DNA from: Alloscardovia macacae
GTDB lineage: Bacteria > Actinomycetota > Actinomycetes > Actinomycetales > Bifidobacteriaceae
Assembly (NCBI RefSeq): GCF_002259705.1
Contig: NZ_MWWT01000005.1
Span: 310,001 to 374,000, forward strand
Length of the DNA stretch: 64,000 nucleotides
Direction: 5' to 3'
Part shown: positions 1,749-23,776 of the stretch, piece by piece
Layout of the letters: every line of letters begins with the position of its first letter
Position numbering within the stretch: the first letter of the stretch is position 1
Program-made: the position numbers and the translations under genes
The notes under the pieces: generated by a model
Seen by the model: the letters and a program-made list of their open reading frames with translations, nothing else
Database searches by the model: none
What the model was told of the DNA's origin: nothing

Positions 1749-1859
1749 TCTCCATTCTTCACATTTCCATCACGCGTGTCGAAATTTCGACTCTCGTCGG
1801 ATGAGTCCTGTACTCTGAGGTGCAGGAATGAAATGAAAACGTATGCAGGAGCATGAACG

Positions 1860-3029: not shown

Positions 3030-3078
3030 AGTGCACGTGAAGTAGGCGTTCTCTAGGAACACCCCTACTGTGTGTATC

Positions 3079-4262: not shown

Positions 4263-5570
4263 ATGAGTACTATAGCGAAAGTAACGACATATGACCTGAG
4301 ATTCCCTACGTCTCAGACCTTATCGGGTTCGGATGCTATGAATCCAGACCCAGACTACTCGAGTGCGTATGTAGTACTCGAGACGAGTGATGGAGACTGT
4401 GGATATGGTTTCGTCTTTACTATAGGTAGGGGTAATGATGTGGTCGTTACCGCTATCGATACCATAGCGCGAAAATTTATAGGAAAACGAGTAGAAACAT
4501 ATCTGGATCAGATGCGGCTCGCATGGGATGAGTGCATTCATGACTCGCAGCTGCGCTGGCTGGGTCCAGAAAAGGGCGTGGTCCATATGGCATGTGGTGC
4601 GCTGCTTTCGGCATTATGGGATCTGAAAGCACGAAGGTCGCGGATGCCGTTATGGAAGCTTCTGAGCAGTATGGAGCCGGAAGAATTGGTCTCTACGCTC
4701 GACTTTCGCTATCTTACAGATGCTCTGACGCCTGAAGAAGCAGTAGACATACTTGCGGATAAAAAAGCGAGTGCCGATGCGCGAGCGCACGATCTTATCC
4801 AGCGTGGATATCCAGGATACTCTACAGCAGCGGGATGGCTCGGATATAGCGACGAAAAAATGCTCAGCCTTATCCGAAGTGAGACGAGGGAGAAAGGATT
4901 TCAGCAGATAAAGCTGAAAGTGGGGCAGAACCTGCAGGATGATATCCGGCGTCTAAGCCTCGCCCGGCAGGAAGCGGGGCCAGATATACGTATAGCGGTA
5001 GATGCGAACCAGGTCTGGGACGTACCGCAAGCCATCGCCTGGATAAAACATCTCGAAAAGTATGACCTCGCGTGGGTAGAGGAGCCAACTAGTCCAGATG
5101 ATGTACTCGGCCACGCGGCCATACAAAAAGCTATTCATCCGCTTGCTGTGGCGACGGGAGAGCAGATGCAAAGCCGTATCCTTTATAAGCAGTATCTGCA
5201 GGCGGGAGCATTCCAAGTGATGCAGATAGATGCGACGCGTGTAGCAGGCCCTCAGGAGATTATCCTCGAGTATCTGCTCGCGCATAAGTATGGCGTACGA
5301 GTATGCCCTCATGCAGGTGGTGTGGGGCTGTGTGAAGCTGTGGTGCAGTATGCCATGCTGGACTATGTGTCCATCTCGGGGCAGATGGAAGACCGCATGG
5401 TGGAGTACGTGGATAATCAGCACGAATACTTCCTCGAGCCTTCTCGAATATGTCATGGGCGTTACCAGACTCCACTGAATCCAGGAAGTGGGATTCAGAT
5501 GAACCTCGCTCTGTGCGAGCAGTATATGTATGCTCAGCCGCGTATACGCACCAGTGCTGATGATGAGTGA
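4263..5570 (+). CDS. L-fuconate dehydratase (enolase superfamily)
   Basis: 435 residues of the mandelate racemase/enolase superfamily, L-fuconate dehydratase branch. It should convert L-fuconate to 2-keto-3-deoxy-L-fuconate. The N-terminal capping domain carries the family's SGSDAMNPDPDYS region. The barrel shows the KxK general base (IKLKVG), metal ligands in VDANQVW, WVEEPTSP and TGEQMQSR, and the late His in CPHAGGVGLCE. The length matches the family. It is the first gene of a run of catabolic genes at 4263-11037 on one strand, with the next start 31 bp downstream. Rhamnonate dehydratase is a less likely alternative, because the neighbours are fucose genes. Confidence 0.9.
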   Translation: MSTIAKVTTYDLRFPTSQTLSGSDAMNPDPDYSSAYVVLETSDGDCGYGFVFTIGRGNDVVVTAIDTIARKFIGKRVETYLDQMRLAWDECIHDSQLRWLGPEKGVVHMACGALLSALWDLKARRSRMPLWKLLSSMEPEELVSTLDFRYLTDALTPEEAVDILADKKASADARAHDLIQRGYPGYSTAAGWLGYSDEKMLSLIRSETREKGFQQIKLKVGQNLQDDIRRLSLARQEAGPDIRIAVDANQVWDVPQAIAWIKHLEKYDLAWVEEPTSPDDVLGHAAIQKAIHPLAVATGEQMQSRILYKQYLQAGAFQVMQIDATRVAGPQEIILEYLLAHKYGVRVCPHAGGVGLCEAVVQYAMLDYVSISGQMEDRMVEYVDNQHEYFLEPSRICHGRYQTPLNPGSGIQMNLALCEQYMYAQPRIRTSADDE

Positions 5571-5601
5571 TATATAAAGGGTACTAGAGAAAGGGACTGC
5601 A

Positions 5602-6393
5602 GTGGACTTACATCTCTCAGGAAAGGTAATCCTCGTGACGGGAGGATTTAAGGGGATAGGCAGAGCTATAGCGTTGAGGCTAGCTGAAGAAGGGGCTATA
5701 CCTGTCGTTCTGAACAGGAGTGATGGGGCAGAAGAAGACTTTCGTCAAGCCATGGAAGAGATAACTACTACGTATGATGTGTATCTCATAGACTTGAATA
5801 ACGCCGATGAGATAGGACCTCTCGTTCAGGATGTGCTCAGAAAGTATGGGCATATCGATGGCGTGGTGAATAATGCGGGTAGAAATGATGGTCTCTCCCT
5901 GGAGACGACCAGCTGGAGGGACTTCGAGGCCTCACTGCATGGAAATCTTACGCATTACTATGAACTCGTACACCAGTGCGTCGGTGCACTGAAAGAGTCG
6001 CAAGGATCTATAGTAAACGTGGGCTCGAAGACGGCAGTAACTGGACAAGGTAAGACAAGCGCATATGCTGCTGCGAAAGGTGCTATCCTCGCTCTTACTC
6101 GCGAGTGGGCTGCTGCGCTGGCTGCTGATAATGTGCGTGCGAATGCCGTCGTTATAGCAGAATCCTGGACTCCTCTCTACGCACAGTGGATCCGGAGCTT
6201 CGGAGATGAAGAGGCACAGAAGGCTCAGCTTGAAAAGATAACGCGATCCATACCGCTTGGCCACCGTATGACGAGTACTGAGGAGATAGCAGATACTGTG
6301 GTTTTTCTCCTTTCTGACCGTTCGTCGCACACGACAGGACAGTGGATATATCCAGATGGTGGTTATGTGCACCTCGATAGGGCGCTGACATGA
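5602..6393 (+). CDS. SDR-family L-fucose dehydrogenase
   Basis: 263-residue classical short-chain dehydrogenase. It has the NAD(P)-binding TGGFKGIGRA at residues 12-21, the NNAG motif, the catalytic Ser before the Tyr-x-x-x-Lys of SAYAAAKGA, and a C-terminal DGGYVHLD typical of the family. The likely reaction is oxidation of L-fucose to L-fuconolactone, the first oxidative step of the non-phosphorylating pathway. The substrate is inferred from the flanking dehydratase, lactonase and mutarotase genes. It starts with GTG at 5602 and overlaps the next gene by 4 bp (ATGA). Confidence 0.85.
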   Translation: MDLHLSGKVILVTGGFKGIGRAIALRLAEEGAIPVVLNRSDGAEEDFRQAMEEITTTYDVYLIDLNNADEIGPLVQDVLRKYGHIDGVVNNAGRNDGLSLETTSWRDFEASLHGNLTHYYELVHQCVGALKESQGSIVNVGSKTAVTGQGKTSAYAAAKGAILALTREWAAALAADNVRANAVVIAESWTPLYAQWIRSFGDEEAQKAQLEKITRSIPLGHRMTSTEEIADTVVFLLSDRSSHTTGQWIYPDGGYVHLDRALT

Positions 6394-7259
6394 TGGGGGC
6401 GCTGACAAAAGCTCACGATGAGCAGGGTAGTGAGCTTACGCCAGTGCAGAAAGTGCTCGACTCGCATGTGCATCTCTGGAACTGGCAGAAACAGAACCTT
6501 CCTTGGGTTACCCGGGATATGAAGGTACTTCAGAGGACGTATACGCTCGATGATCTCGTATGCGCGTATGACTCTGCTCGGACAGTGCCGCAGGTTCAGC
6601 TCGTCTCAGGAGTGTATGTAGAAGTGGATACGCCAGACTGGGCGGATGAAGATATACGAGCGGCGCAGCTTCAGGAAAGTGCGGGATTTGCTATGTGCTT
6701 ACAGGCGCGTCTCAGCACGCATATGCGTGTGCCTCTCTGTGCACGGGCTGTACGTGAAGTACTGCACACGACATCTGCTCGGGAGGGTCGCTGTCTCGAG
6801 CGAGAATTTTTAGACGGACTGCGTCTACTCGCAGACCGCCATATCGCATTCGATGCGTGTGTACGTACCGAAGAACTCGATGATCTCGTACGGGCATGCG
6901 AGCGTATTCCGCAAGCTACTGTAGTGCTCGATCACGTGGGGAATGTGACTAATAGCGCTCAGCTCGAGAGCGCACTTCCCGCTTTTGAGCGGCTTGCTAC
7001 TCTGGAGAATGTCTATGTGAAAGTGTCTGGGTATCCCACTGCTGACGTAGTATTCGCTGACAGTATATGTGCGTGCATGAAGTCTATCTTCTCTCCAGAA
7101 CGTCTCCTGTATGCTTCAAACTGGCCAGTGATTCAGCTTTATGGTGGGCTTGCTGAGCATCTTCAAATCGTGATGAAGTACTGGAATGGTGACGATAATT
7201 TCTTCTACGCAAATGCACGACGAGTATATGGAGGAGATGATGAGCATGTTTCTCTGTGA
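6390..7259 (+). CDS. Amidohydrolase-family L-fuconolactonase
   Basis: 289 residues of the amidohydrolase 2 (COG3618-like) group. The metal-binding HxH is in LDSHVHLWNW at about residue 27. Later come VLDHVGNV and the C-terminal RLLYASNWPV, where the catalytic Asp is usually found in a GSDWP context. Here that position reads ASNWP, an Asn substitution also seen in some fucono- and rhamnonolactonases, so specificity deserves a check. It would hydrolyse fuconolactone to fuconate. It is translationally coupled to the dehydrogenase by an ATGA overlap (ATG at 6390, alternative ATG at 6393) and overlaps the aldolase start. Confidence 0.82.
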   Translation: MMGALTKAHDEQGSELTPVQKVLDSHVHLWNWQKQNLPWVTRDMKVLQRTYTLDDLVCAYDSARTVPQVQLVSGVYVEVDTPDWADEDIRAAQLQESAGFAMCLQARLSTHMRVPLCARAVREVLHTTSAREGRCLEREFLDGLRLLADRHIAFDACVRTEELDDLVRACERIPQATVVLDHVGNVTNSAQLESALPAFERLATLENVYVKVSGYPTADVVFADSICACMKSIFSPERLLYASNWPVIQLYGGLAEHLQIVMKYWNGDDNFFYANARRVYGGDDEHVSL

Positions 7260-8118
7260 TGGAGTGTACTGTCCATCCCTGACGTTCCTAAGAGAGGATG
7301 GCACTGCAGACTATGAGCACTGGTATGCACACTGTGACCATCTTATCCATGCGGGTGTGCAGGGCATAATCCTTTTCGGAAGTATCGGCGAGTTCTATAC
7401 GTTCAGTGTGCAGGAAAAGGCGCAGATGATCCATCATCTCGTTCAGTATATACAGCACAGAATGCAGGTCTTCGTGGGTGTGGCAGATACGGATGTGCGA
7501 AACGTACTTGAGCTTATCCGTGCTTGTGAGCGAGAGGAAGTGGATGGTATCCTAGCTCTCTCGCCGTATTATTTCGGTCCAAGCCCTCGCGAAGCTCGTG
7601 CATACTTCTCGCGGCTGGCATGCAGTACATCTTTACCGGTTATTCTTTATAACTTCCCAGCTCGCACGGGCAGTGATCTTGATCCAGAGACAGTGTCAGT
7701 GCTGGCATGCGAGTATGAAAATATCGTGGGGATAAAAGACACCGTGGATACACTCAGTCATACGCGAAAGATAATCCAGAGTGTACGTCCTGTGCGACCA
7801 GACTTCTGTGTGCTGTCTGGGTATGACGAATACTATGGAGCAAATAGAGTAGCTGGTGGTAATGGCGTTATCAGCGGCCTTACGAATGTGGAACCAGAGA
7901 CTTTCTCTCGAGCGGACAAGGCGTGGAAGGATAAAAATATGCGGGAGCTCCTGGAGGCGAGCGCGCGCATACAGCATCTCATGGCAGTCTATGATGTGGC
8001 TGAGTTCTTTATCCCTGCTATAAAAGAAGCGGTACGAGTAAAAGGACTCGACATCAGTGTGGAAGACCTGCGACTCACTGTGCAGCAGCGCGCATGTATA
8101 GCACAGATTCTCGAGTAA
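7246..8118 (+). CDS. Dihydrodipicolinate synthase-family 2-keto-3-deoxy-L-fuconate aldolase
   Basis: Class I aldolase of the DHDPS/N-acetylneuraminate lyase family (about 290 residues). It has the GSIGEF loop, the active-site Tyr135 in YNFPARTG and the Schiff-base Lys164 in VGIKDTVD. In this cluster it should split 2-keto-3-deoxy-L-fuconate into pyruvate and L-lactaldehyde. I chose ATG 7246 because GGAGGAG at 7230-7236 lies 9 nt upstream. Nearby ATGs at 7237 and 7240 are too close, and the open frame extends further to 7186 within the previous gene. It overlaps the lactonase gene by 14 bp. No lactaldehyde reductase gene lies in the window. Confidence 0.85.
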   Translation: MFLCDGVYCPSLTFLREDGTADYEHWYAHCDHLIHAGVQGIILFGSIGEFYTFSVQEKAQMIHHLVQYIQHRMQVFVGVADTDVRNVLELIRACEREEVDGILALSPYYFGPSPREARAYFSRLACSTSLPVILYNFPARTGSDLDPETVSVLACEYENIVGIKDTVDTLSHTRKIIQSVRPVRPDFCVLSGYDEYYGANRVAGGNGVISGLTNVEPETFSRADKAWKDKNMRELLEASARIQHLMAVYDVAEFFIPAIKEAVRVKGLDISVEDLRLTVQQRACIAQILE

Positions 8119-8155
8119 ACTAGAGAACAGTACAGTCATACGAAGGAGTAAGGCC

Positions 8156-8590
8156 ATGCTGAAAGGAATACCGGCTATACTCTCACCGCAGTTACTGAAA
8201 GTACTGTGTGAGATGGGACATGGAGATACTATAGTCTTCGCAGATGCGCATTTTCCTGCTCAAAGCGTCAGTGAGCGCGCCTGCGTCGTGCGCTATGATG
8301 GAGTGCGCATTCCTGAACTTCTTACTGCAGTGCTTACCCTCTTCCCCCTCGACCGGTATGATGACGCTCCTGTGACTCTGATGAAAGTGGTAGAAGGAGA
8401 TATAGAAGGAGGTAGGTGTGCCGCTCCCATCTGGGATGAGTATGGAAGTATTCTTCAGGGAGCACATATGCAGTGGTGCGAGCGCTATGAGTTTTATGAC
8501 CGTGCTCGTAGCGCATACTGCATAGTGGCTACGGGAGAAACTCAGCAGTATGCGAACATTATCCTGCGTAAAGGAGTAGTACGCGTATGA
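8156..8590 (+). CDS. fucU: L-fucose mutarotase (FucU/RbsD family)
   Basis: 144 residues covering the whole FucU/RbsD family. The N-terminal MLKGIPAILSPQLLKVLCEMGHGDTI has the conserved catalytic His in GHGD, followed by FADAHFPA, and the C-terminal Tyr-rich GETQQYANIILRKGVV. It interconverts the anomers of L-fucose, which speeds use of the beta- or alpha-fucose released by the fucosidases. An RBS (GAAGGAG) precedes ATG 8156. It overlaps the GH95 gene by 4 bp (ATGA), so the two are probably co-translated. Confidence 0.93.
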   Translation: MLKGIPAILSPQLLKVLCEMGHGDTIVFADAHFPAQSVSERACVVRYDGVRIPELLTAVLTLFPLDRYDDAPVTLMKVVEGDIEGGRCAAPIWDEYGSILQGAHMQWCERYEFYDRARSAYCIVATGETQQYANIILRKGVVRV

Positions 8591-11037
8591 AAATGCTCTG
8601 GCATGGTGCAGCACAGCACTGGAATGATGGCATACCGCTAGGAAGTGGTCGTATGGGTGCCATGGTGTATGGCGCGGACGAGCAGATTACTTTCGCGCTG
8701 AATGAGGACACTCTCTGGTCTGGATATCCGAATGAGGATGTCTCGCCTCTGAACGCTCGCGATATGGAAGATGCGCGCAAGCTGCTTCGTGATGGACTGG
8801 TGAGTGAAGCAAATGAGCTTATTAATAGTAAGCTCTCTCATGCGCATGATGTGCAGGTTTATCTTCCTCTCGGAGATATGCATCTACGCTTCGAAGCTGC
8901 ACGTACAGATGTGCAGCGCAGTCTCGACCTTGATGATGCGACGATGAGAGAGTGTTTTAGCCTAGATGACACCGCTGTAAAAGTAGAAGCGTGGTGCTCG
9001 CGGAAAACTGATGAGCTCATCGTGAAGGTAGATGCAACAGGTCTGCTGAACTGTACACTGAGTGCAGACGGTGGGTTTATAACACACGTAGATGCGCAGA
9101 GAGAGAAGCTCTGTATACGCGGTCAAGCGCCAGGTCTACACCGCCGCACTCTCGAAAATGCTGATGATACTCTCTGGAATCCAGAGAATGTCATCGGTGA
9201 AGGGATGGGGTATGCAGCAGTTATACGCTATGAAGTGGCTGAAGGGCAGGTGCAAGATAGGGGAAACTCCATAGCTTTCTCCGATATCCAGCATCTTACC
9301 CTCCGTGTGCGTATGCGTACGGGATATCGAGGACATAATGTGTCTATCTGTACAGATAGTGCACAAATACTCACGGAGCTTCTTACCGTGTGGAAAGAGG
9401 AGCATGCCGTAGGGGATGCTGTAGGTAATGCTGAACGTGACGCTGAACGTGACGCGAAGGATGAGTATGACACACTTTTTCGGCGTACGCGTATCTGTCT
9501 CGGTACAGCAGATGAGGAAGAGAGTGCGTATGAGTATGATGTCGCGAGGCTTCTCGAGAGTGTAGCGCAAGGGAGTGAGGATGCGCTTGCGCGGTGTGTG
9601 CAGATGCTCTTTTCTTTCGGAAAATACTTGGCTCTTTCGGGATCTCGCCTCGGTGCGCAAGCGATGACACTTCAGGGGCTGTGGAATAATCAAAAAGTGC
9701 CGCCGTGGTTTAGTGATTACACGACGAATATTAATACAGAGATGAATTACTGGCTTGTGGGCCCATGTCAGCTGGGGGATGTTATAGAACCGTTAGAGGT
9801 GATGAGCGAACAGCTGATATGTCCAGGAAGGAAAACTGCCCGAGATGTCTTCGGATGTGGCGGATCTGCAGTCTGTCATAACGTGGACATATGGAGAAAA
9901 AGTACTCCAGCACACGGTGATGCTCTCTGGGCACTTTATCCGTATGCGCACGCGTGGATATGTGCCACGCTCTATGATACATATCTCTATACGCGAGATG
10001 CGGAGTACCTAGAAAGAATTTGGCCTTCGATGTGTGCTACCGCGCAGTTCTGTATGGACGCGCTGGTGGAGAAGGACGATGGATATCTGGCACCGTGTGG
10101 TGCTATCTCTCCAGAAAATCAGTTTTATGTAGATGATACCGGGGCGGTGGCATCGGTGGCGAGTTATACAGAACACGCGCTCGCGCTGACACGTGAAGCC
10201 TGTAGAAATCTGTGTGAGGCGTATGAACATTTGTGCTCTGCTGGAAAAGATACGTGTGTCAGTGAGGATTCAGATACCTGCGCGAAAGTGGATGGAAAAG
10301 CATTTGTGACTCGCGCACGAGGTACACTTCCTCGCCTTGTTCCACCTCGCATTCGCGATGATGGCGCTGTGCAGGAATGGGACAGTCAGTATAAAGAAGT
10401 AGATCCTCAGCACAGGCATCTTTCGCATTTGTATGAGGTATATCCTGGTCGTGGAAGCGATGAGCGTCTCGAGAAGGCAGCTCGAGTAACGCTCGAACAG
10501 CGCGGGGATGATGGATCTGGCTGGAGTATAGTCTGGAGGATGCTTCTGTGGTCGAGACTCCGGGACTCGCAGCACGTACTGAACTGTATGAGGCTCTTTC
10601 TTCGCCGAGTAGATGCGGAGACTGAACCGAGTATTCATGGGGGAGGAGTGTATGGTAGTGGTCTGTGTGCGCATCCGCCATTTCAGATAGATGGAAACTT
10701 AGGCTTTAGCGCTGCATGTATGCAGATGCTCGTGGATAGCACGCCGAACAGTATACGTATCCTCCCTGCGTGGCCATGTGGAGGTGGATATGAGTCCAGT
10801 CTATGGTCCCGGGGAAGCGTATGTGGGGCAGGAACCCGTACGGGGCTGACGGTGGACGTGCACTGGGACTCGAAAGAAGTGGTGTGCTCTATACGGACGT
10901 ATACGCAGGAGGAGGCTCAGAGTCTACGAGTACTGAGCGAAAAAGGCGAACGTGTATCTGTGCGATATGCTGAGGAAGAGATGTGGATTACGTATGAGGA
11001 GTGTGTACGAGGCACCACCCTTCGATTCAAACGATAA
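8587..11037 (+). CDS. GH95 alpha-L-fucosidase (1,2-alpha-L-fucosidase), intracellular
   Basis: 816-residue inverting fucosidase of family GH95. It has the N-terminal LWHGAAQHWNDGIPLGSGRMGAM signature and the Asn-x-Asn pair (N381, N383) of TTNINTEMNYW. The likely general acid is E510 in ISPEN, and D702 lies in FQIDGNLG. These correspond in order and spacing to the four active-site residues known for Bifidobacterium bifidum AfcA. There is no signal peptide or anchor, so it should act in the cytoplasm on imported fucosyllactose-type oligosaccharides. It is the last gene of the catabolic run. The AT-rich promoter of the ABC genes follows it. Confidence 0.93.
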   Translation: MKMLWHGAAQHWNDGIPLGSGRMGAMVYGADEQITFALNEDTLWSGYPNEDVSPLNARDMEDARKLLRDGLVSEANELINSKLSHAHDVQVYLPLGDMHLRFEAARTDVQRSLDLDDATMRECFSLDDTAVKVEAWCSRKTDELIVKVDATGLLNCTLSADGGFITHVDAQREKLCIRGQAPGLHRRTLENADDTLWNPENVIGEGMGYAAVIRYEVAEGQVQDRGNSIAFSDIQHLTLRVRMRTGYRGHNVSICTDSAQILTELLTVWKEEHAVGDAVGNAERDAERDAKDEYDTLFRRTRICLGTADEEESAYEYDVARLLESVAQGSEDALARCVQMLFSFGKYLALSGSRLGAQAMTLQGLWNNQKVPPWFSDYTTNINTEMNYWLVGPCQLGDVIEPLEVMSEQLICPGRKTARDVFGCGGSAVCHNVDIWRKSTPAHGDALWALYPYAHAWICATLYDTYLYTRDAEYLERIWPSMCATAQFCMDALVEKDDGYLAPCGAISPENQFYVDDTGAVASVASYTEHALALTREACRNLCEAYEHLCSAGKDTCVSEDSDTCAKVDGKAFVTRARGTLPRLVPPRIRDDGAVQEWDSQYKEVDPQHRHLSHLYEVYPGRGSDERLEKAARVTLEQRGDDGSGWSIVWRMLLWSRLRDSQHVLNCMRLFLRRVDAETEPSIHGGGVYGSGLCAHPPFQIDGNLGFSAACMQMLVDSTPNSIRILPAWPCGGGYESSLWSRGSVCGAGTRTGLTVDVHWDSKEVVCSIRTYTQEEAQSLRVLSEKGERVSVRYAEEEMWITYEECVRGTTLRFKR

Positions 11038-11183
11038 TTTCGTAAAAAATAAAGAATATTTCGTAAATTAATTTCGCATTCTTGAAAATGTAGTGTATAC
11101 TAACAATTGTACGTAGCAGTACACCCACATAGGTGCCAGACGGCGAAGCAGCAGTCTGATACCGTGAAGAGAAGGATGAGGAG
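11038..11183 (+). promoter_or_regulatory. Promoter/operator of the oligosaccharide ABC transporter operon
   Basis: Two TTTCGTAA cores (11038-11045, 11059-11066) precede a TTTCGCA that overlaps the predicted -35 (TTCGCA 11073-11078). This is followed, after 17 bp, by TATACT at 11096-11101 with an extended -10 TG. The layout fits LacI-type repression. An RBS (GATGAGGAG) precedes the gene. Confidence 0.55.
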
Positions 11184-12527
11184 ATGATGAACTCTACTCA
11201 GATAAAGAGGATTCTGGCTCTAGTGAGCGCGGGGTCTATGATTATAGGTATGGCGGCATGCGGCGCTGGTAAGTCCGGCGGAAGCAGCGGAGGAAAAGTG
11301 ACTCTCGAATTCGCAGCCTTCGAAGGTGGCTATGGTGCCCAGATGTACAAGGATGTCGTCGCTGCTTATGAAAAGGAAAATCCTAACGTAAAGATTAATC
11401 TCACTATCTCGAAGAAGATAGAAGATGAGATTATGCCTGGTATGAAGGCAGGAAAGTATCCAGATATAGTCGAGCTTGGTCAGGGTACGAAGTCTGGACT
11501 TACGGAAACCCTTTTGAAGGATAAAGCACTCGAAAAGCTGAATGATGTTCTCGACATTCAGGTACCAGGTGAAAGTAAGACTGTAAAAGAGAAGCTCGTG
11601 GATGGCGTCATAGGTCTCTACACGAATCCATACGGTGGTAGCGATACGTATCTTATGCCTATGTACTACTCGCCGACGGGTCTCGTCTATAATAAGACCC
11701 TTCTGAAGCAGAATGGCTGGGAAGTGCCGAGCACATGGGATGAGATGTTTAAGCTGGGAGATGCTGCGAAGGCGAAGGGCATATCCCTCTTCACCTATCC
11801 TACAGCAGGGTACTTCGATGCATTCTTTAATGCATTCCTCGCTGATGTCGGTGGAGAGCAGTTCTACGAAGACATCATGACCTATAAGAAGGATATCTGG
11901 AAGTCTTCGGATGCTACGAAGGCTCTCGAGACGACCTCGAAGCTTGTCAAGGACTACTTGAATCCGGATACTGTGGGCTATGCGAACGGTCAGGACTTCA
12001 CGAAGAATCAGCAGTCTATCCTGAGCGATAAGTCTATCTTCATGCCTAACGGCACGTGGATAGTAAACGAGATGAAGGATGCTCCACGTTCGGACGGCTT
12101 CGAGTGGGGGTTTGCTCCAGTACCTACTCTCGAAGCAGGCAAGACGCACTATGTGAGCACCGCTCTGGAAGCTGTGTGGATACCATCGAAGGCGAAGCAT
12201 AAGGAAGAAGCGAAGAAATTCATGGCGTACCTTTACTCGGATAAGGCCGCGGATATCTTTGTAAAGACGGGTGCTGTGCAGCCTATCAAGGGCGTCACTG
12301 ATAAGGTAGACTCCACCATTCGTACCTTCTACGAGGTCTATAACCAGAAGGATGTGAAGGCTATAGCGGGTTCGTTCTCTACGACGGCGACTGTCGAAGG
12401 AAAGAACATTAAGCAGGATCTGTATGAAGCAGTGGATTCTGTGGCCTCTGGGCAGCTGAGCCTTCAGCAGTGGCAGGATAAGCTGAATGAAACCAGTAAT
12501 GCTCTGAACGCTGCAGCTTCGAAATAA
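11184..12527 (+). CDS. ABC transporter sugar-binding lipoprotein (CUT1 family)
   Basis: 447-residue extracellular solute-binding protein, family 1. Residues 1-26 are a lipoprotein signal peptide ending in GMAAC, with Cys26 as the lipidated residue and a Gly/Ser linker after it. The mature part resembles oligosaccharide-binding proteins of the CUT1 class (KISKKIEDEIMPGMKAGKYPDIVELGQG, MYYSPTGLVYNK, IFMPNGTWIVNEM). It is followed by two matching permeases and later by a fucosidase, so a fucosylated host oligosaccharide or a lacto-N-biose-type glycan is the probable ligand (inference). Confidence 0.92.
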   Translation: MMNSTQIKRILALVSAGSMIIGMAACGAGKSGGSSGGKVTLEFAAFEGGYGAQMYKDVVAAYEKENPNVKINLTISKKIEDEIMPGMKAGKYPDIVELGQGTKSGLTETLLKDKALEKLNDVLDIQVPGESKTVKEKLVDGVIGLYTNPYGGSDTYLMPMYYSPTGLVYNKTLLKQNGWEVPSTWDEMFKLGDAAKAKGISLFTYPTAGYFDAFFNAFLADVGGEQFYEDIMTYKKDIWKSSDATKALETTSKLVKDYLNPDTVGYANGQDFTKNQQSILSDKSIFMPNGTWIVNEMKDAPRSDGFEWGFAPVPTLEAGKTHYVSTALEAVWIPSKAKHKEEAKKFMAYLYSDKAADIFVKTGAVQPIKGVTDKVDSTIRTFYEVYNQKDVKAIAGSFSTTATVEGKNIKQDLYEAVDSVASGQLSLQQWQDKLNETSNALNAAASK

Positions 12528-12554
12528 CTGAATACGTAATTTCCCTCCTTAGCA

Positions 12555-12593
12555 CAAGGGGCATGGGTACTCGCCAGGGTATCCATGCCCTTG
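12555..12593 (+). other. Stem-loop between binding-protein and permease genes
   Basis: Arms 12555-12570 and 12579-12593 can form a stem of about 15 bp, with one internal mismatch or wobble, and a short loop without a U-run. Such hairpins after binding-protein genes often protect the upstream mRNA or attenuate read-through, giving more binding protein than permease. That role is inferred. Confidence 0.6.
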
Positions 12594-12641
12594 GTGTACT
12601 GAGATAGGTGTGGGAAAGTCTTTGCTCAAGGAGGAGTGATT

Positions 12642-13610
12642 ATGGCGACGATGCATACAGATCACGGAGGTGCTACGCATCCTAGCGGACATGTATATGC
12701 GTATACGCGCACGCATAAGACAGATCTGGAAAGAAAGCGCGCGAGGTTCGGGTTCTTCTGCGCGTTACCTACGGGATTACTTATCCTCATCTTCATCCTT
12801 ATTCCCACGTTTAACATTTTTAGGATGTCCGTGTATAAGTGGAGTGGATACTCGGATGATCAGATATTTGTGGGCTTTGAGAACTTCCGTAAGCTCTTTG
12901 ATGACATGAACTTCGTTCATGCTTTCCAGAATACTGTTCTGCTTCTCGTCGTGGTAACGAGTGTGACTCTTCCTCTGGCAGTCATTTTTGCGGCCATACT
13001 TATGCAAAATAGGATTATAGGTGGTTCTCTTATACGTTTTATCCTCTATATTCCTTCAGTTCTGTCCATAGTAATAGTGGCTGCTATCTTCTCCGCTATT
13101 TATGACCAGAATAATGGACTGATTAACGGCTCCTTACAGTTCCTTCATCTCGAGGGGCTTCGCCAGGTGTGGCTCGGAAATCAGAAGATAGTCATCTATG
13201 CGATAGCATTCTCCATGCTCTGGCAGTCTGTGGGATACTACATGGTTATGTATATGGCATCGATGGCAGGTATAGATCCAAGCCTGTACGAAGCTTCTCA
13301 GATAGATGGGGCGAGTAAGACGCGTCAGCTTTTTAGTTTGACTATTCCACTTATGTGGCAGAATATCCGCACTACGCTCACGTTCTTTATCATTAGCTCT
13401 GTAAACTTAAGCTTCGTACTGGTCACCGCGCTGACGAATGGTGGTCCGGATAATGCATCTCAGGTACTCCTTGGATACATGTATCAGCAAGCGTATACGA
13501 ACTCGTCGTATGGATATGGCATGGCTATAGGCGTAGTTATCTTCCTCTATAGCTTCATTATGTCGCTCGTGGTCAGTCGTGCCACGAAGCGTGACGTGGT
13601 CGAGTTCTAG
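12642..13610 (+). CDS. ABC transporter permease, MalF-type
   Basis: 322 residues with six predicted transmembrane helices. The first is at about residues 32-55 (FGFFCALPTGLLILIFILIPTF). The cytoplasmic EAA loop reads YEASQIDGASKTRQLFSLTIPLM, which docks to the ATPase. Start ATG 12642 follows AAGGAGGAG at 12628-12636. A GTG two codons upstream, within that RBS, is less likely. It forms the heteromeric pore with the next gene. Confidence 0.93.
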   Translation: MATMHTDHGGATHPSGHVYAYTRTHKTDLERKRARFGFFCALPTGLLILIFILIPTFNIFRMSVYKWSGYSDDQIFVGFENFRKLFDDMNFVHAFQNTVLLLVVVTSVTLPLAVIFAAILMQNRIIGGSLIRFILYIPSVLSIVIVAAIFSAIYDQNNGLINGSLQFLHLEGLRQVWLGNQKIVIYAIAFSMLWQSVGYYMVMYMASMAGIDPSLYEASQIDGASKTRQLFSLTIPLMWQNIRTTLTFFIISSVNLSFVLVTALTNGGPDNASQVLLGYMYQQAYTNSSYGYGMAIGVVIFLYSFIMSLVVSRATKRDVVEF

Positions 13611-13624
13611 GAAAGGAGGAGGAT

Positions 13625-14545
13625 ATGAACACGCTCACTCATAAAGTACCACGTGCTCAGCGCATAGTAAATAAGAAGGGGACTGAGCATGCATGGACTG
13701 CTGGCCGTACCATCGGTCAGATAGTGCTTACTCTCGTCGCTCTGAGCATAGCCATACCTACGATATGGATTATCATCGCATCATTTAAGGATAAAGGAGA
13801 GTTTTATGGGAGTCCGTGGACTCTTCCTGAGGGCGTTCACTGGCAGAATTACGTCGATGCTTTTACAGATGCTCACTTGGGTCTGTACTTCGGCACATCT
13901 GTGATAGTGACCACGCTGTCCATGATTCTCGTGCTCGTCATCGCTCTGCCGTGCGCTTACGTGCTGGCACGCTTCTCTTTCCCGGGTAAGCGTTTGCTTC
14001 AGCTGGCCATCCAAGCAGGGCTTTTCATAAACGTGAACTACATTATCGTGCCTATCTTCCTGATGCTGGTAGACGCTGATAAATGGCTGCTTCAATTTTT
14101 CGATGCGGGCTTCTTCATCGATAACATCTTCGTTCTTTCGCTCGTTTATGCTGCGACTTCGCTTCCGTTTACGGTATTCCTACTTCAAGATTACTTCGCG
14201 ACCATACCGAAGGCATACGAAGAGGCGGCTATGATAGATGGTGCTTCGCAGACTACTATTATGGTTCGCATATTCTTCCCTATGGCTATGCCTGCCATAT
14301 CCATGTCCATGCTCTTTAATTTCCTGTGCTACTGGAACGACTACATCATATCCATGACCCTGATGACAGGAGATAACCGTACGGTGCAGGTGGGGCTGCT
14401 GAATCTCATGCAGACTCAGAAGGCCGCTACGAATTACGGACGTTTGTATGCAGGCATGGTCATAGTCATGATACCGGTACTTATCTTCTACGCCATCGTT
14501 CAGAAGAAACTCCTCGAGGCGTCAAATATGGGAGGCGTGAAATGA
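13625..14545 (+). CDS. ABC transporter permease, MalG-type
   Basis: 306 residues with six predicted membrane helices. The EAA loop YEEAAMIDGASQTTIMVRIFFPMAMP is near residues 200-225. It has a strong RBS (AAAGGAGGAGG) 14 bp after the first permease. There is no ATP-binding gene in the island, so the importer probably relies on a shared MsmK-type ATPase encoded elsewhere, as is common for CUT1 systems in bifidobacteria and other Gram-positives. It overlaps the next small gene by ATGA. Confidence 0.93.
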   Translation: MNTLTHKVPRAQRIVNKKGTEHAWTAGRTIGQIVLTLVALSIAIPTIWIIIASFKDKGEFYGSPWTLPEGVHWQNYVDAFTDAHLGLYFGTSVIVTTLSMILVLVIALPCAYVLARFSFPGKRLLQLAIQAGLFINVNYIIVPIFLMLVDADKWLLQFFDAGFFIDNIFVLSLVYAATSLPFTVFLLQDYFATIPKAYEEAAMIDGASQTTIMVRIFFPMAMPAISMSMLFNFLCYWNDYIISMTLMTGDNRTVQVGLLNLMQTQKAATNYGRLYAGMVIVMIPVLIFYAIVQKKLLEASNMGGVK

Positions 14546-14721
14546 GTGAAAAGATACGAGCAGCTTTGAGCATAGGCTTTCAGTGTGTGCTGTATATAGC
14601 GTGTATAGTGCTCACTATCTTTGGTGCAGCACATACAGGATGGGTATATCTCGGGCTCGAGTTTGTGGGACTTCTCGGTATTATATCCATTATCTGGTTC
14701 TATAACTGGAGAAACAGGTAA
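14542..14721 (+). CDS. 59-residue two-helix membrane protein in the ABC operon
   Basis: A short ORF tightly coupled on both sides. Its ATG overlaps the permease stop as ATGA, and its TAA shares one base with the ATG of the GH29 gene. The protein has two hydrophobic stretches (about residues 8-30 and 33-54) with a short HTGW turn, and ends in a basic NWRNR tail. I do not recognise a family with confidence. Gene position suggests a small accessory subunit or assembly partner of the importer (inference). The overlaps and complete operon continuity are what make it a gene rather than chance. Confidence 0.72.
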   Translation: MSEKIRAALSIGFQCVLYIACIVLTIFGAAHTGWVYLGLEFVGLLGIISIIWFYNWRNR

Positions 14722-16034
14722 TGAAACGTACAGATGAAGACCTGACCTGTGTGCGTCCTTCCCCGCGCCAGCTCGTATGGCAGGATTTAGACATGTATGC
14801 CTTCATCCATTTTGGTATGAATACGATGACAGACCGAGAGTGGGGCATGGGACATGAAGACCCTGCGCTTTTCCATCCTGATTCTCTCGATGTGCAGCAG
14901 TGGATGGAGGCTCTCGTCTCGGCAGGGATGACAGGAGTGATACTTACCTGTAAGCATCACGACGGATTCTGTTTGTGGCCATCTGCATATACGTCGCATA
15001 GTGTCGCATCGTCTCCCTGGAAGGGTGGGAAGGGGGACCTCGTACGTGAGGTGAGCGATGCTGCTCGGGAGCACGGCCTGAAGTTCGGAGTGTACCTTTC
15101 TCCCTGGGATAGAACAGAAGAGAGCTATGGTACAGAAGCATATAATGACTTTTACATTCACCAGCTGACCGAACTGCTGACTGGTTATGGTGAAGTCTTT
15201 AGCGTGTGGCTCGATGGAGCCTGTGGCGAAGGGGCGAATGGGAAACGACAAGTGTATGACTGGGAGCGTATCTATGCCACCGTGCGCGAGCTTCAGCCTC
15301 GGGCTGTGATCAGCGTCTGTGGACCAGATGTACGCTGGTGTGGAAATGAAGCTGGACATACTCGTGCGGATGAATGGAGCGTAGTGCCAGAGATAGTGCG
15401 GCGAGCTGAGACGACAGCAGAGCGTTCCCAGAAGGTAGATGATGGGACCTTCTCTCGCTATATAGCTTCGAGTGAAGATGATTTAGGCTCGAGGAAAGCT
15501 CTCGACGAGTATAGTGGTGCGCTAGTCTGGTATCCTGCAGAGGTGAATACATCTATCCGCCCTGGGTGGTTTTACCATGCAGAAGAAGATACGTGCGTAC
15601 GCAGTGCTAATGAGCTTTTCGACATCTGGTGCGCGTCAGTAGGAGGGAATGCGAGCTTCCTTCTGAATGTTCCTCCGGATTCTCATGGACGCATAGCAGT
15701 ATCGGATAAAGAAGTTCTCGCTGAGCTCGGTACAAAGATACGAGATTTTTACAGGCGAGAAGTGATACTTGATGCTCTAGATGTCACCTTCGAGATTCCT
15801 CAGCTCATAGAAGCAGTGATTCTCAGAGAAGATATACGCTTCGGGCAGCGTATCGAATCAGTAAAGATTTATGCTGATGAAGCAAAGGAGCCTCTCGCCT
15901 CCTGCCAGAGCGTGGGAAATAGAAGAATATGGCGTATTCCTGCGAGGAGACTATCTCGTGTGCGCGTGGATATAGAGCAAGCGCGAGGGGAAGTACATCT
16001 TAAATCCTGCTCTATCGTGGTGGCTTCGCCATGA
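14721..16034 (+). CDS. GH29 alpha-L-fucosidase
   Basis: 437-residue retaining fucosidase with the GH29 barrel. It has FIHFGMNTMTDREWG near the N-terminus, the KHHDGFCLW segment, GVYLSPWDR, and the probable nucleophile Asp165 in VWLDGACGEG. This short form with DGACGEG and the ensuing VISVCGPDVRW resembles the alpha-1,3/1,4-specific (subfamily B) fucosidases acting on Lewis-type glycans. Specificity is inferred. There is no signal peptide, so it is cytoplasmic. A small C-terminal beta domain follows from about residue 345. It complements the 1,2-specific GH95 enzyme upstream. Confidence 0.9.
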   Translation: MKRTDEDLTCVRPSPRQLVWQDLDMYAFIHFGMNTMTDREWGMGHEDPALFHPDSLDVQQWMEALVSAGMTGVILTCKHHDGFCLWPSAYTSHSVASSPWKGGKGDLVREVSDAAREHGLKFGVYLSPWDRTEESYGTEAYNDFYIHQLTELLTGYGEVFSVWLDGACGEGANGKRQVYDWERIYATVRELQPRAVISVCGPDVRWCGNEAGHTRADEWSVVPEIVRRAETTAERSQKVDDGTFSRYIASSEDDLGSRKALDEYSGALVWYPAEVNTSIRPGWFYHAEEDTCVRSANELFDIWCASVGGNASFLLNVPPDSHGRIAVSDKEVLAELGTKIRDFYRREVILDALDVTFEIPQLIEAVILREDIRFGQRIESVKIYADEAKEPLASCQSVGNRRIWRIPARRLSRVRVDIEQARGEVHLKSCSIVVASP

Positions 16035-16816
16035 TAATCCGAGACTTCTATAGAGTTATGCGTGCAGGGATAGTACTCATGGTAGCGCTGTGCCTGTGCG
16101 CAGCTTGTACGCTTCGTACTAGCGAAAAGACGGCAGTACCTTCCTCGTATACGCGGCATGAGAAACTTTTCCAGTGGGCATATCGTGAAGGATATACAGA
16201 TTTGACCACATGGGAGGCCTTTCTTCGTGAGTATGCGAAATTCAGAGACGATGGTGTGCAGTATGGAGTACAGGAGAAAAGTCTAGACTTTTTCTGTGAC
16301 TATGTGGTTACAGATGCGAAGCATTTTCTCCTTCGCTCTCACGCTCCTGAGCTGGAGCTCAGTGATGATGAGCTCCGCACATTTTACGAACAGCACGGGA
16401 GTGCCAGTGCGGCTCAGGGGCACCGTGCGTACATAGAGGTAGAAGACGGGAATTACTTCTCGGAGGATATGGCGAAGAGCATACGGAATATCGTAGAAGA
16501 TGAAAGAATTGGTATTCCGGAAAAAGCAGAACGTATCCGCCAGCGCTATCCGGATTTGAGCTGGAAAATTATCCATGAAGAGGATGAACGCGGAGCTTCT
16601 GCTCACGCACAGGACAGAGCTGATGTCTTCCTTCAGCTGAGGAAGCAGACAGAAATGCGAGTCGAGGATGGCGGACGAAAGCTGTGGAGAATACTTCTTT
16701 CGGATAGTAGCTCTGAAGCCGTTCCGGAACTTGAAGATATAAAGGATACAGTACGTGAGAGTGCGCGCCGATGCAAGCTGGAAGCGTTACTGGAAAGAGA
16801 AGAAAGGAGTCGATGA
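16031..16816 (+). CDS. SurA/PrsA-like lipoprotein, probable dedicated chaperone of the next gene (LnbY-like)
   Basis: 261 residues. An N-terminal hydrophobic segment (about 12-25) ends in CAAC, a lipobox-like site (VALCLCAACTL), so it is probably a membrane-anchored lipoprotein. The rest is helical and charged. The ELSDDELRTFYEQHG segment resembles the helical part of SurA/PrsA-type foldases, without a clear PPIase domain. It overlaps both neighbours by 4 bp (ATGA). GH136 lacto-N-biosidases are known to need a helical partner (LnbY in Bifidobacterium longum) encoded beside the enzyme, and this gene sits in exactly that place. The identification is by context and weak similarity. Confidence 0.62.
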   Translation: MIIRDFYRVMRAGIVLMVALCLCAACTLRTSEKTAVPSSYTRHEKLFQWAYREGYTDLTTWEAFLREYAKFRDDGVQYGVQEKSLDFFCDYVVTDAKHFLLRSHAPELELSDDELRTFYEQHGSASAAQGHRAYIEVEDGNYFSEDMAKSIRNIVEDERIGIPEKAERIRQRYPDLSWKIIHEEDERGASAHAQDRADVFLQLRKQTEMRVEDGGRKLWRILLSDSSSEAVPELEDIKDTVRESARRCKLEALLEREERSR

Positions 16817-19251
16817 TGACTCATATACACCACCGGACGCTTGCGAGAAAACTCGCAGTACTCGGTGCATGCGTAGGAATGCTTTTGAGTGTGGGGGCAC
16901 TGCCGTGTACCGCTCTCGCGTCAGAAGCTCTTTTCGATACACAAACATGGTCGGGTAACACTCCGAATCCTTATGGCGGTCAGGATTACTTCGTGGACAG
17001 CCGCAGTGGTGAGGATGCGTCTACGGGCACGAGCGCGCAGACACCGTGGAAGAATCTCACCCGCGTACACACAGTTACATTCCAGCCGGGAGATAGGATA
17101 CTGTTAAAAGCTGGGTCTGTGTGGAATGACCAGCAGTTATGGCCTCAGGGTTCTGGTGCAGAGGATAAGCCCATTACCATAGCAGCGTATGGAGATAGTA
17201 ATGCTGCAAAGCCATATATAGCCACGAATGGAAAAGTGGACATCCCCTTTACGCGAGGCAAAGGCACGGGGAACCCGCTCAAAGATCCACAGAAAGTGGG
17301 AACGACGGGTGCGGTAGTGCTGAGAAACCAGCATCACTGGGAGATACGCGAGCTGAGTCTATCTAATGATGATGACTTTAGCGTAGATAAAACAGCGCGG
17401 GATGGTACAGTCTGGGATGGAATATCCATATCGATTAATGCAGATATACTGGAAAAGCAGCAGGGCGTCGAGCAGCTGAAGGCACATCCTGAGCGCACAG
17501 TAATGAAGCATTTTCGTGTAGATCACGTCGATGTGCACCATCTCGACTCTCCAGATACATGGCAGAAGATATATACAGCTGGAGTAAACTTCCAGGTTTT
17601 CGGGTCGAAGAACCACGAATCATACGAGTATGCTCCTGGAGGATACCACTTCGATGATATCCGCATAGAAAAGAATACCTTCGATACAGTGGATCTGAAC
17701 GCCATACAAGCGGGCTTTAACTGGTTCGGTGACGGTGCTGGTGAAAAAGACTCCAGTGGGAAATGGCATGATGGCTGGGAGCATCTCTGGGTACGTACGC
17801 ATAACCAGTACACGACACAGCTGTACATAGGTAATAACTCCATGCACAGCATAGGTCAAGGTGCTATTCAGGTAGGAGACTCGAAAAATGTGCTGATGGA
17901 ATATAACACTGTGAATGGATATCTGAAAAGATACCGAGCACAGTCCTGTGCTATCTATGCATATGCGAGTGCCGATGTACTTATACGCTATAACGAAGTT
18001 TTTGATGGTGCTGCAACGACGTATGACGGGACACCATGGGATTTCGAGTATAACGACTTTAATGTGGTCTATGAGCATAACTACTCCCATGATAATGGTG
18101 CTGGATGGTTTGCTTATATGGGTAATACAGATAAAGCTGTGGCTCGTTATAACCTCTCTGTGAATGATAATGGAACCATGATTCGTGAGTTTATGAGTGG
18201 AAACTATTCGCCGACTTACTTTACGAATAATGTCATCGTGTATAAAGGAGGCGCGCGGGGTCAGGGGAAAACACAGGCTGAGTTCCATAATAAATCATTC
18301 AAGAGCCCACTCTACTTCGTGAATAATGTCTTCTATAATTACGATGCGAGTACACAGACGCGCTGGAGGAACTCTGAGCGTGGTGAAGAAAACATCGATA
18401 ATGCTATCTTCTACCATAACGTTTTCTTCGAGGCGTCAGGAAAGCATAAAAATGAGCCGCGTAATGAGGGAGGAAGCCATGAAGATCCGCACTTCGTGGG
18501 GTATGCAGGAGAAGCGAGCATTCCGCGCCTGGCTACCTTCTCGAATACCTCGTATTCTGGAGCAAAGGATACGCGTAGCGCTATTCGTGCTGTGGCACAG
18601 GCATTTACTCCAGCAGCAGGGTCACCTCTCATCGATACCGGTCTTACTACAGCATCGCAGGGAACGAGTGATATCCTCGGACATGCCATACAGTATGGCA
18701 CTGCTTCGGACATAGGCATAGTAGAAGTGGATAAAGGGGAGAAGAATGCGAAGCCATTTCTCGCTGTCGATGTGGAGCATGCTCGGGAAAATCTCGCACA
18801 GTCCGCACGTGTAGTAGTGAGCTCTCAGCATCCTTCCTCTGAGCTGAGAGCGACGAATCTTACCGATGGGAATGGTGCTACACGGTGGGCAGCGCATGAT
18901 GATGCTCAGTATCCTCTCGACATAGACATCCACTTCGGACGGGAAGTGATGTATAACACGGTGAAGATAGACGAGTATGTAAAGGTGTTCGGGAATAAAC
19001 GCCATCCTGAGTGGGACACGCATGAGCGCATTCAGAGGTACTCTCTGTGGCGCTGGAATGACGCGTCACATGACTGGGTAAAGTTTTATACAGCCGACAC
19101 AGGTGCACGTTCTGCAGCTGTATTTAGCCCGCAGTCTTCCACTCAGCTACGTATTCATGTAGAGTCCGTCTACTCGGGACGAGATACCTATCGCGGGCAT
19201 CCAAGTCCACCGACTATCTCGGAGATAACTGTATCCATGAATATAGAATAG
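16816..19251 (+). CDS. Secreted right-handed beta-helix glycosidase, probable GH136 lacto-N-biosidase (LnbX-like)
   Basis: About 811 residues. A signal peptide with cleavage after CTALA (residue ~35) is followed by YFVDSRSGEDASTGTSAQTPWKNL and a long beta-helix with repeated asparagine ladders (NNSMHSIGQGAIQVGDSKNV, YNEVF, YEHNYSHDNGAGW). A C-terminal F5/8-type-C (discoidin/CBM32-like) domain lies at about 650-811. There is no LPxTG or C-terminal membrane anchor. Asp397 and Asp404 are seven residues apart, matching the catalytic pair spacing and nearly the position (411/418) reported for B. longum LnbX. It would release lacto-N-biose from lacto-N-tetraose outside the cell. ATG 16813 is an alternative start. 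Another beta-helix glycosidase or lyase remains possible. Confidence 0.65.
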   Translation: MTHIHHRTLARKLAVLGACVGMLLSVGALPCTALASEALFDTQTWSGNTPNPYGGQDYFVDSRSGEDASTGTSAQTPWKNLTRVHTVTFQPGDRILLKAGSVWNDQQLWPQGSGAEDKPITIAAYGDSNAAKPYIATNGKVDIPFTRGKGTGNPLKDPQKVGTTGAVVLRNQHHWEIRELSLSNDDDFSVDKTARDGTVWDGISISINADILEKQQGVEQLKAHPERTVMKHFRVDHVDVHHLDSPDTWQKIYTAGVNFQVFGSKNHESYEYAPGGYHFDDIRIEKNTFDTVDLNAIQAGFNWFGDGAGEKDSSGKWHDGWEHLWVRTHNQYTTQLYIGNNSMHSIGQGAIQVGDSKNVLMEYNTVNGYLKRYRAQSCAIYAYASADVLIRYNEVFDGAATTYDGTPWDFEYNDFNVVYEHNYSHDNGAGWFAYMGNTDKAVARYNLSVNDNGTMIREFMSGNYSPTYFTNNVIVYKGGARGQGKTQAEFHNKSFKSPLYFVNNVFYNYDASTQTRWRNSERGEENIDNAIFYHNVFFEASGKHKNEPRNEGGSHEDPHFVGYAGEASIPRLATFSNTSYSGAKDTRSAIRAVAQAFTPAAGSPLIDTGLTTASQGTSDILGHAIQYGTASDIGIVEVDKGEKNAKPFLAVDVEHARENLAQSARVVVSSQHPSSELRATNLTDGNGATRWAAHDDAQYPLDIDIHFGREVMYNTVKIDEYVKVFGNKRHPEWDTHERIQRYSLWRWNDASHDWVKFYTADTGARSAAVFSPQSSTQLRIHVESVYSGRDTYRGHPSPPTISEITVSMNIE

Positions 19252-19258
19252 GGGAAAA

Positions 19259-19299
19259 GAAGGGCTGTGATGATGGTACTCACCACATCACAGCCCTTC
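19259..19299. terminator. Bidirectional terminator between glycosidase gene and parC
   Basis: A 14-bp perfect stem, 19259-19272 with 19286-19299, and a 13-nt loop lies between the convergent genes. It is preceded by A residues on one strand and followed by a weak T-rich stretch. Confidence 0.75.
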
Positions 19300-19342
19300 G
19301 CTGTCTAGTTTCTCAAGTCCTACTCGCTTCCTAGTCTGTGCC

Positions 19343-23438: not shown

Positions 23439-23488
23439 TTTACAAAAACATTATTATGGTGTACAATGTATACACAAGTAATGTTTTT
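23439..23488 (+). promoter_or_regulatory. Promoter and operator of the DinJ/YafQ-type operon
   Basis: -35 TTTACA at 23439-23444, 17-bp spacer, -10 TACAAT at 23462-23467. A perfect 10-bp inverted repeat (AAAAACATTA 23444-23453, TAATGTTTTT 23479-23488) brackets the -10. This is the arrangement expected for autorepression by the antitoxin. Confidence 0.75.
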
Positions 23489-23503
23489 AAGGAAGGAAAA
23501 GAC

Positions 23504-23776
23504 ATGGCTACTTCTCCAGTACAGATACGTATCGATGAGACTGTAAAGAAAAATGCCACGGTGCTTTTTAATGAGCTTGGTTTAGATATGTCGAGTGCAG
23601 TGAACATTTTTCTTCGCCAGTGCTTGCTTCATGATGGGCTTCCTTTCTCTGTGGAAAAGCCGGCATATAAGAAGAGCACCCTAGCAGCTATGGAAGAAGC
23701 TCGACGTATCTCCAGAGATGATTCCGTTCCTGCATATACGACTATGGAAGATCTCAAGAGAGCATTAGAAGAGTAG
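23504..23776 (+). CDS. RelB/DinJ-family antitoxin
   Basis: 90 residues. The N-terminal ribbon-helix-helix (VQIRIDETVKKNATVLFNELGLDMSSAVNIFLRQ) is the RelB/DinJ DNA-binding fold. The C-terminal part (residues 55-90) is charged and would wrap the toxin. ATG 23504 follows AAGGAAGGAAAA; an upstream in-frame codon at 23456 lies within the operator and is rejected. The gap to the toxin gene is 11 bp. Together they form a type II toxin-antitoxin module that usually aids persistence or stabilises DNA. Confidence 0.9.
   Translation: MATSPVQIRIDETVKKNATVLFNELGLDMSSAVNIFLRQCLLHDGLPFSVEKPAYKKSTLAAMEEARRISRDDSVPAYTTMEDLKRALEE

Follow-up and report, generated by a model that had tools for sequence, protein, structure and literature searches.

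A GH136-like lipoprotein and beta-helix enzyme pair in a fucose-utilisation locus of Alloscardovia macacae

Why should a fucose-utilisation locus end in a lipoprotein gene overlapping that of a secreted beta-helix protein, and which glycan might such a pair open? The question is raised by a 64,000-nucleotide stretch (hereafter the window) of the 1.89 Mb genome of Alloscardovia macacae, Bifidobacteriaceae (genome code G000; contig C16:310001-374000). The locus comprises, in this order, a LacI regulator, fum-type L-fucose genes, the mutarotase FucU, a GH95 fucosidase, a solute-binding protein (SBP) with two permeases of an ATP-binding cassette (ABC) importer, a GH29 fucosidase, and the two genes in question (16031-16816 and 16813-19251). 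A first-pass annotation had read these two as a lacto-N-biosidase of family GH136 with its chaperone. We favour, with appreciable reserve, a GH136-like two-subunit enzyme that would release Gal-beta-1,3-GlcNAc units, most likely as Lewis a, for import and fucose use. The GH136 part of the first reading thus stood. The canonical LnbX type was not supported, the nucleophile position holding a Glu, and Lewis a release appears to fit the locus better.

Homology, fold and catalytic residues of the beta-helix protein

Both reading frames were confirmed, with a lipobox in the first (cysteine 26) and a signal peptide in the second, each recognized by eye. They overlap by ATGA, as had been noted, when the enzyme starts at ATG 16813; a second in-frame ATG lies at 16816, from which residues are numbered here. 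The beta-helix protein is homologous to the GH136 lacto-N-biosidases. Its sequence matched five distinct solved sequences, all titled lacto-N-biosidases in the PDB, at E values from 9.9e-21 to 2.4e-28 (5gqc 2.4e-28, 7v6m 2.6e-27, 7v6i 1.6e-22 and 6kqs 9.9e-21), and with the profile of the clade described below these five were recovered at E 1.6e-29 to 3e-51. The NCBIfam LnbX model NF047897 matched at E 4.2e-28 with 97.8 bits, below the equivalog cut-off of 2500 bits, which is a weak test since the model has 1498 positions and a protein of 812 residues could hardly reach that value.

The AlphaFold model (mean pLDDT 71.5, with 160 of 812 residues under 50) is a right-handed beta-helix, for which the fold ranking was headed by BsaX (7v6i, Z 34.7), TnX (7v6m, Z 31.5) and LnbX of Bifidobacterium longum (5gqc, Z 30.8), followed by BT_1002 (Z 27.6) and ErLnb136 of Eubacterium ramulus (6kqs, Z 26.8). 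The best superposition, on 7v6i, covered 494 residues with a root-mean-square deviation (rmsd) of 3.0. A generic pectate-lyase-like beta-helix was rejected, as the Pfam matches to Beta_helix and Chondroitinas_B were weak and sub-cut-off and GH136 structures topped the fold ranking. The discoidin-type module proposed at the C-terminus was likewise recovered: Pfam F5_F8_type_C matched at E 0.012, under the Pfam cut-off, the clade profile matched the chitosan-binding module 4zxe at E 5.7e-7, and Foldseek gave a TMt of 0.80 to 4zy9 and of 0.71 to the CBM32 module 2j1a. In common with LnbX, the protein has the beta-helix, the acid/base Asp, an adjoining partner gene and secretion; it differs by an identity of about 21-23%, by a Glu in place of the nucleophile Asp, by a loop 2 region 12 residues shorter, and by a discoidin-type C-terminus with no sortase-type anchor visible by eye.

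The catalytic pair had been placed at D397 and D404, and one half of that assignment survives. The acid/base of ErLnb136 is D568 and its nucleophile D575, as described in PMC7335108; in alignments to 5gqc and 6kqs, D404 falls on D568 and E411 on D575. D397 has no catalytic counterpart in the alignments to 5gqc, 6kqs, 7v6i and 7v6m, by which the D397/D404 pair is ruled out and D397 taken to be a coincidence. In LnbX the corresponding residues are presumably D411 (acid/base) and D418 (nucleophile), the numbers used in the first-pass annotation as well; chain 5gqc has Asp at both positions, while chain 24mr, otherwise near-identical there, has Ser at the second. ErLnb136 therefore shares with the window enzyme the fold of the catalytic domain and the D568 equivalent, whereas its I and II domains are fused and its nucleophile is Asp, the window having separate genes and Glu.

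This Glu is not peculiar to the window. A genome collection was scanned with an alignment of the window and B. leontopitheci proteins, an approach limited to relatives in which at least one of two short peptide patterns is present; the locus counts given here are therefore not frequencies. It returned 42 loci at 41-54% identity, most near full length including the C-terminal module, in Streptomyces (14), Nonomuraea (10), Paenibacillus (5), Actinoplanes (4), Winogradskya (2) and seven single genera, among them that of B. leontopitheci. The carriers are mostly soil-type bacteria, and most belong to genera not known to be milk-exposed. The protein of the locus in family genome G055 is the B. leontopitheci protein (L002, L061), and its genus group differs from that of the window. 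The acid/base Asp and the nucleophile-position Glu occur in 40/40 aligned clade rows, window included, as opposed to Asp at both positions in the four PDB enzymes and in 29/29 other relatives examined (hits from 28 loci of a search of 189 family genomes, plus locus L108). The Trp that stacks on Gal (W548 of ErLnb136) is a Trp in 39 of the 40 rows. A quick tree of 56 rows places all Glu-type members on one side of a single branch with an SH-aLRT of 100, this being the only kind of support and the tree carrying a long-branch warning. The loop 2 region, which takes up 36 residues in both LnbX and ErLnb136 and 44 in BsaX, measures 24 in the window enzyme and five other clade members; shorter loops 1 and 2 in RiLea/b136 of Roseburia inulinivorans have been related to fucose tolerance (PMC7335108).

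A third type was also observed within the family (L007, L008, L009, L011, L012, L016, L023, L026, L028), whose large proteins carry NDGEAFDID or NDAEAFDID as their D..D motif and a Met at the Gal-stacking Trp position.

The partner lipoprotein and the conserved locus

An LnbY-like gene lies directly upstream of the enzyme in 41/42 loci, and in the exception, L084, the enzyme match begins 60 bases from the contig end; with an equivalent gene in so many loci, a spurious open reading frame (ORF) is ruled out for the window partner. Partner genes end in ATGA, GTGA or TTGA in 36/41 cases, and in 21/41 this is also the precise start of the longest ORF that follows. The E value of 2.4e-28 to GH136 chains, taken together with a gene order repeated in distant genomes, makes the pair more than a chance neighbourhood.

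The identification of an LnbY-like partner is probably right. All 42 members of the partner-family alignment match LnbY with E values no higher than 1 (the best being 8.6e-22), and with a leave-one-out family profile the window partner came first among the 427 window ORFs, at E 0.0054, the next one standing at 2.2. The B. leontopitheci partner matches LnbY at E 1.8e-5 and the window partner at a BLASTP E of 0.001. When the 189 family genomes were searched with the window partner, 53 other genomes had matches with E no higher than 1, most of them not beside GH136 genes; yet the best (G056, E 0.0024) follows that genome's own GH136 match at a distance of about 3.4 kb, and those of G052 (E 0.027) and G083 (E 0.17) are likewise near GH136 genes, all three within 6 kb. 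This profile ranking, the neighbouring GH136 genes and the matches of the B. leontopitheci partner suggest that the window partner is probably the same LnbY/GH136I helper, strongly diverged, and its role may possibly be reduced. The partner-family profile also touches PrsA (6vj4, E 2e-4). In the uninformative fold comparison of the partner model, the best score was to a PrsA (Z 5.2, rmsd 7.6, 192 aligned residues).

The surroundings of the pair are conserved too. GH29 is found in 38/42 loci, directly before the partner in 36, further upstream in L098 and downstream in L090, and an SBP in 35/42; the order SBP, permease, permease, GH29, partner, enzyme recurs in 34/42, that is, in all 35 with an SBP except L090. 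GH35 occurs in 31/42 loci and GH112 in 4/42, never both, so that 35/42 carry one or the other (calls checked with Pfam on four examples). GH112 stands between the permeases and GH29 in the Paenibacillus loci L088, L089 and L092 and after the enzyme in B. leontopitheci, while GH35 is mostly divergent, beyond the LacI gene, and hence part of the locus and not of the operon. One seems to take the place of the other where the loci are otherwise alike (L061:13454-15709 and L088:4960-7137 versus L062-L065 and others).

As described in PMC7335108, R. inulinivorans carries GH136I/II with GH29, GH95, GH112 and an ABC importer in one locus. The link between the pair, two fucosidases and an L-fucose pathway, which had been put forward as unfamiliar, is indeed present in the window, but it is not new as such. 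RiLea/b136I-II resembles the window system in its two-subunit secreted GH136 enzyme, membrane-anchored helper, ABC importer, GH29 and GH95, and the products that it frees from fucosylated milk oligosaccharides are Lewis a or b (PMC7335108, compared here by description only); its locus includes GH112, which the window operon lacks. The fum locus of Bifidobacterium kashiwanohense, as listed in PMC6817895, shares GH95, GH29, fumB, fumF, fumD, fumC, fumE, an ABC importer and LacI with the window, whereas the listed locus contains no GH136 pair and its importer takes fucosyllactose.

Substrate of the pair and alternative readings

The importer offers a clue to what the enzyme might release. BiGFL-BP of B. 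infantis binds lacto-N-biose (LNB), galacto-N-biose (GNB), Lewis a and H1 (PMC12345172). The window SBP, 77% identical to it (Table 1) and 76% identical to the SBP of B. leontopitheci, keeps 8/8 of the LNB-backbone contacts of BiGFL-BP, and all eight are found in 32/35 clade SBPs; every contact column is retained in 33 or more of the 35, compared with 36% of all mature columns (binomial 3e-4, a figure that treats related sequences as if they were independent). The window SBP thus matches the BiGFL-BP type, and binding of LNB and Lewis a is predicted for it. The GH29 protein, nearest among solved enzymes to the B. infantis alpha-1,3/4-fucosidase, retains the two residues by which the mutant 3uet departs from 3ues and has no signal peptide visible by eye. 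GH112 acts on Gal-beta-1,3-HexNAc (PMC7335108) and is present elsewhere in the A. macacae genome, where no convincing GH35 was found, the one match being partial (E 9e-7). Taken together, SBP, GH29 and GH112 or GH35 suggest that the core is Gal-beta-1,3-HexNAc and that it bears fucose in alpha-1,4- or 1,3-linkage, which Lewis a would satisfy most simply; release of this or a comparable fucosylated unit appears to fit the locus better than plain lacto-N-tetraose cleavage.

We therefore propose, from gene content and alignments, the following route. The lipoprotein would be the helper subunit (I), presumably required for activity, and the beta-helix protein the catalytic subunit (II) of an extracellular GH136-like glycosidase, in which D404 would serve as acid/base and Glu411 would replace the usual Asp as nucleophile of a retaining reaction. 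The enzyme would cut host glycans at the bond on the reducing side of Gal-beta-1,3-GlcNAc, most likely where this carries an alpha-1,4-fucose (Lewis a). The freed di- or trisaccharide would be bound by the BiGFL-BP-like SBP and imported; GH29, with GH95 if alpha-1,2-fucose is present, would then remove the fucose, to be used by the fum-type pathway encoded alongside, and the GH112 phosphorylase encoded elsewhere would split the remaining lacto-N-biose.

Several observations weigh against this proposal. On the side of the enzyme, the window copy has a Tyr at the Gal-stacking position, an end branch of 1.23 compared with a median of 0.13 in the quick tree, and changes at 57 of the 249 columns invariant in 38 other members (23 in B. 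leontopitheci), which makes it a fast-evolving member of a Glu-type sister clade whose activity is itself putative; the change from Asp to Glu could alter geometry or activity, and only loop 2, not loop 1, is shortened in the clade members shown. On the side of the partner, the match to LnbY (NF047894) when taken alone is E 0.029 with 14.2 bits against a cut-off of 400, the N-terminal SurA-like segment of most relatives is missing, 41 of 50 conserved columns deviate (29 in B. leontopitheci), and the fold search was uninformative, Foldseek returning nothing within E 0.001. As for the locus, GH112 is not in the window operon, seven clade loci have neither GH112 nor GH35 (two of them, L066 and L084, begin near a contig end), and near the H1 fucose the SBP carries T100 and K101 in place of the S100 and T101 of BiGFL-BP, which renders H1 binding doubtful.

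The fold and homology would also suit an ordinary GH136 lacto-N-biosidase acting mainly on unfucosylated lacto-N-tetraose, with a neutral Glu and with GH29 and GH95 devoted to other imported sugars, particularly as this type of SBP also binds LNB and GNB (PMC12345172). Yet GH29 recurs in 38/42 clade loci, mostly in the genera noted above as not known to be milk-exposed, the Glu is constant in all 40 rows, and the loop 2 region is shortened, so that we regard this explanation as unlikely. We hold to be just as unlikely that a GH136-related enzyme makes a different cut and releases another unit, for example galacto-N-biose or H type 1, or that the protein is a GH141-like beta-helix fucosidase, in either case with an LNB-type importer. 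BT_1002, which we take to be a GH141 enzyme, is the best fold match outside GH136 and ranks above ErLnb136, GH112 and the SBP are compatible with galacto-N-biose too, and the Glu at the nucleophile position speaks for this reading as well; but BT_1002 is outscored by three GH136 enzymes (Z 30.8-34.7), the sequence resembles GH136 alone, and the H1-fucose-near residues F44, S100 and T101 of BiGFL-BP are kept in 4, 0 and 0 of the 35 clade SBPs. That the pair is decaying or lost its function in A. macacae after transfer, leaving an importer and a fucose pathway fed by other bacteria, would explain the long branch, the many changes at invariant positions and the truncated partner, but it is improbable given that both frames are open, the overlap, D404 and E411 are retained and the SBP has stayed so close to that of B. 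leontopitheci.

A broader and still tentative picture may be drawn. In the literature consulted, GH136 is treated as a means by which gut bacteria adapt to milk oligosaccharides and host glycans, and it is listed, without further study, in genome tables of Streptomyces and Paenibacillus (PMC11475409, PMC10353221). Lewis a antennae are described on plant complex N-glycans (PMC9522356, PMC10154615); the word GH136 is absent from the main text of both papers. The Glu-type proteins may form a second major GH136 branch with a Glu nucleophile, specialised for Lewis a or another fucosylated form of Gal-beta-1,3-GlcNAc, which mostly soil-type actinomycetes and Paenibacillus would use on the antennae of plant N-glycans and whose operon a gut lineage would have acquired and coupled to the bifidobacterial fucose pathway. 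The plant substrate is a proposal; among the papers screened, mostly by titles and abstract openings and with subscription journals mostly outside, no study of the Glu-type clade or of its role on plant N-glycans was found. A Glu sister clade with a type-1-chain and fucose locus in mostly non-gut genera suggests that type-1 foraging is wider than the gut, and it makes two questions testable, namely Glu as a GH136 nucleophile and the removal of whole Lewis a units from plant N-glycans. Such removal, if true, would be an alternative to the stepwise GH29/GH2/GH20 trimming of these antennae.

Genomic context and neighbouring features

The fucose/Lewis stretch of about 16 kb (window 3079-19300) lies between a major facilitator superfamily (MFS) gene and a topoisomerase subunit gene, and is not at that site in 4/4 genus relatives. 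The flanking genes, called parE and parC from sequence, are 17.8 kb apart in A. macacae and 1.4 to 2.4 kb apart in all four relatives, where the gap holds an MFS gene like that of the window. The GC content of positions 1600-19340 is 0.501, compared with 0.565 in the remainder of the window. Among the five genus genomes, the partner gene was detected in A. macacae only (with a profile that includes the window row), and enzyme matches in A. macacae and G008 (E 7.5e-7, 25% identity). Closed-up flanks, lower GC and genus distribution fit an island acquired by the A. macacae genome, while single genes may sit elsewhere in relatives; loss of the stretch in the relatives may be the explanation instead. 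Spread by phage was unsupported: a scan of viral contigs gave 32 pattern matches and no relative, and no PHROG match was obtained, phage still being possible as this was one scan with two peptide patterns. The features of the locus are given in Table 1.

Table 1. Coordinates (window positions) and supporting evidence of the fucose locus, the GH136-like pair and the adjoining MFS gene.
Feature	Position	Strand	Evidence
MFS gene	1860-3029		
LacI-family regulator	3079-4107	-	PF00356/PF13377
Enolase-superfamily dehydratase, probable fumE	4263-5570	+	PF13378; name by comparison with PMC6817895
Short-chain dehydrogenase, probable fumC	5602-6393	+	PF13561; name by comparison with PMC6817895
Amidohydrolase, probable fuconolactonase (fumD)	6390-7259	+	PF04909; name by comparison with PMC6817895
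DapA-family aldolase, probable fumF	7186-8118	+	PF00701; name by comparison with PMC6817895
L-fucose mutarotase (FucU)	8156-8590	+	PF05025, E 3e-41
GH95 alpha-fucosidase	8587-11037	+	PF22124, E 1.5e-111
ABC solute-binding protein (SBP)	11184-12527	+	77% identity to BiGFL-BP (Blon_0883, PDB 9h0n)
ABC permease	12636-13610	+	PF00528
ABC permease	13625-14545	+	PF00528
GH29 alpha-1,3/4-fucosidase	14721-16034	+	3ues, E 1.5e-167; PF01120
GH136I/LnbY-like partner, predicted lipoprotein, 261 aa	16031-16816	+	LnbY NF047894, E 0.029 alone; alignment; leave-one-out profile
GH136II-like secreted right-handed beta-helix enzyme, 812 aa from ATG 16813	16813-19251	+	PDB 5gqc; NF047897; model fold
D404 codon (numbering from 16816), acid/base position	18025-18027	+	alignment
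E411 codon (numbering from 16816), nucleophile position	18046-18048	+	alignment
C-terminal discoidin/CBM32-like module (Pfam stretch)	18820-19167	+	Pfam; clade profile; Foldseek

A second GH136-like gene exists in the A. macacae genome (L108:4990-6483, minus strand; C16 about 87.0-88.5 kb). It encodes 497 aa with the canonical DGQAWDAD motif, shows no signal peptide by eye and is divergent from a sugar ABC importer; no partner was found for it with the partner-family profile, which may miss other partner types. A GH112 LNB phosphorylase is encoded beyond this importer, at C16:92166-93455. Finally, within the window, a RelB-family antitoxin gene was noted at 23456-23776 (PF04221).

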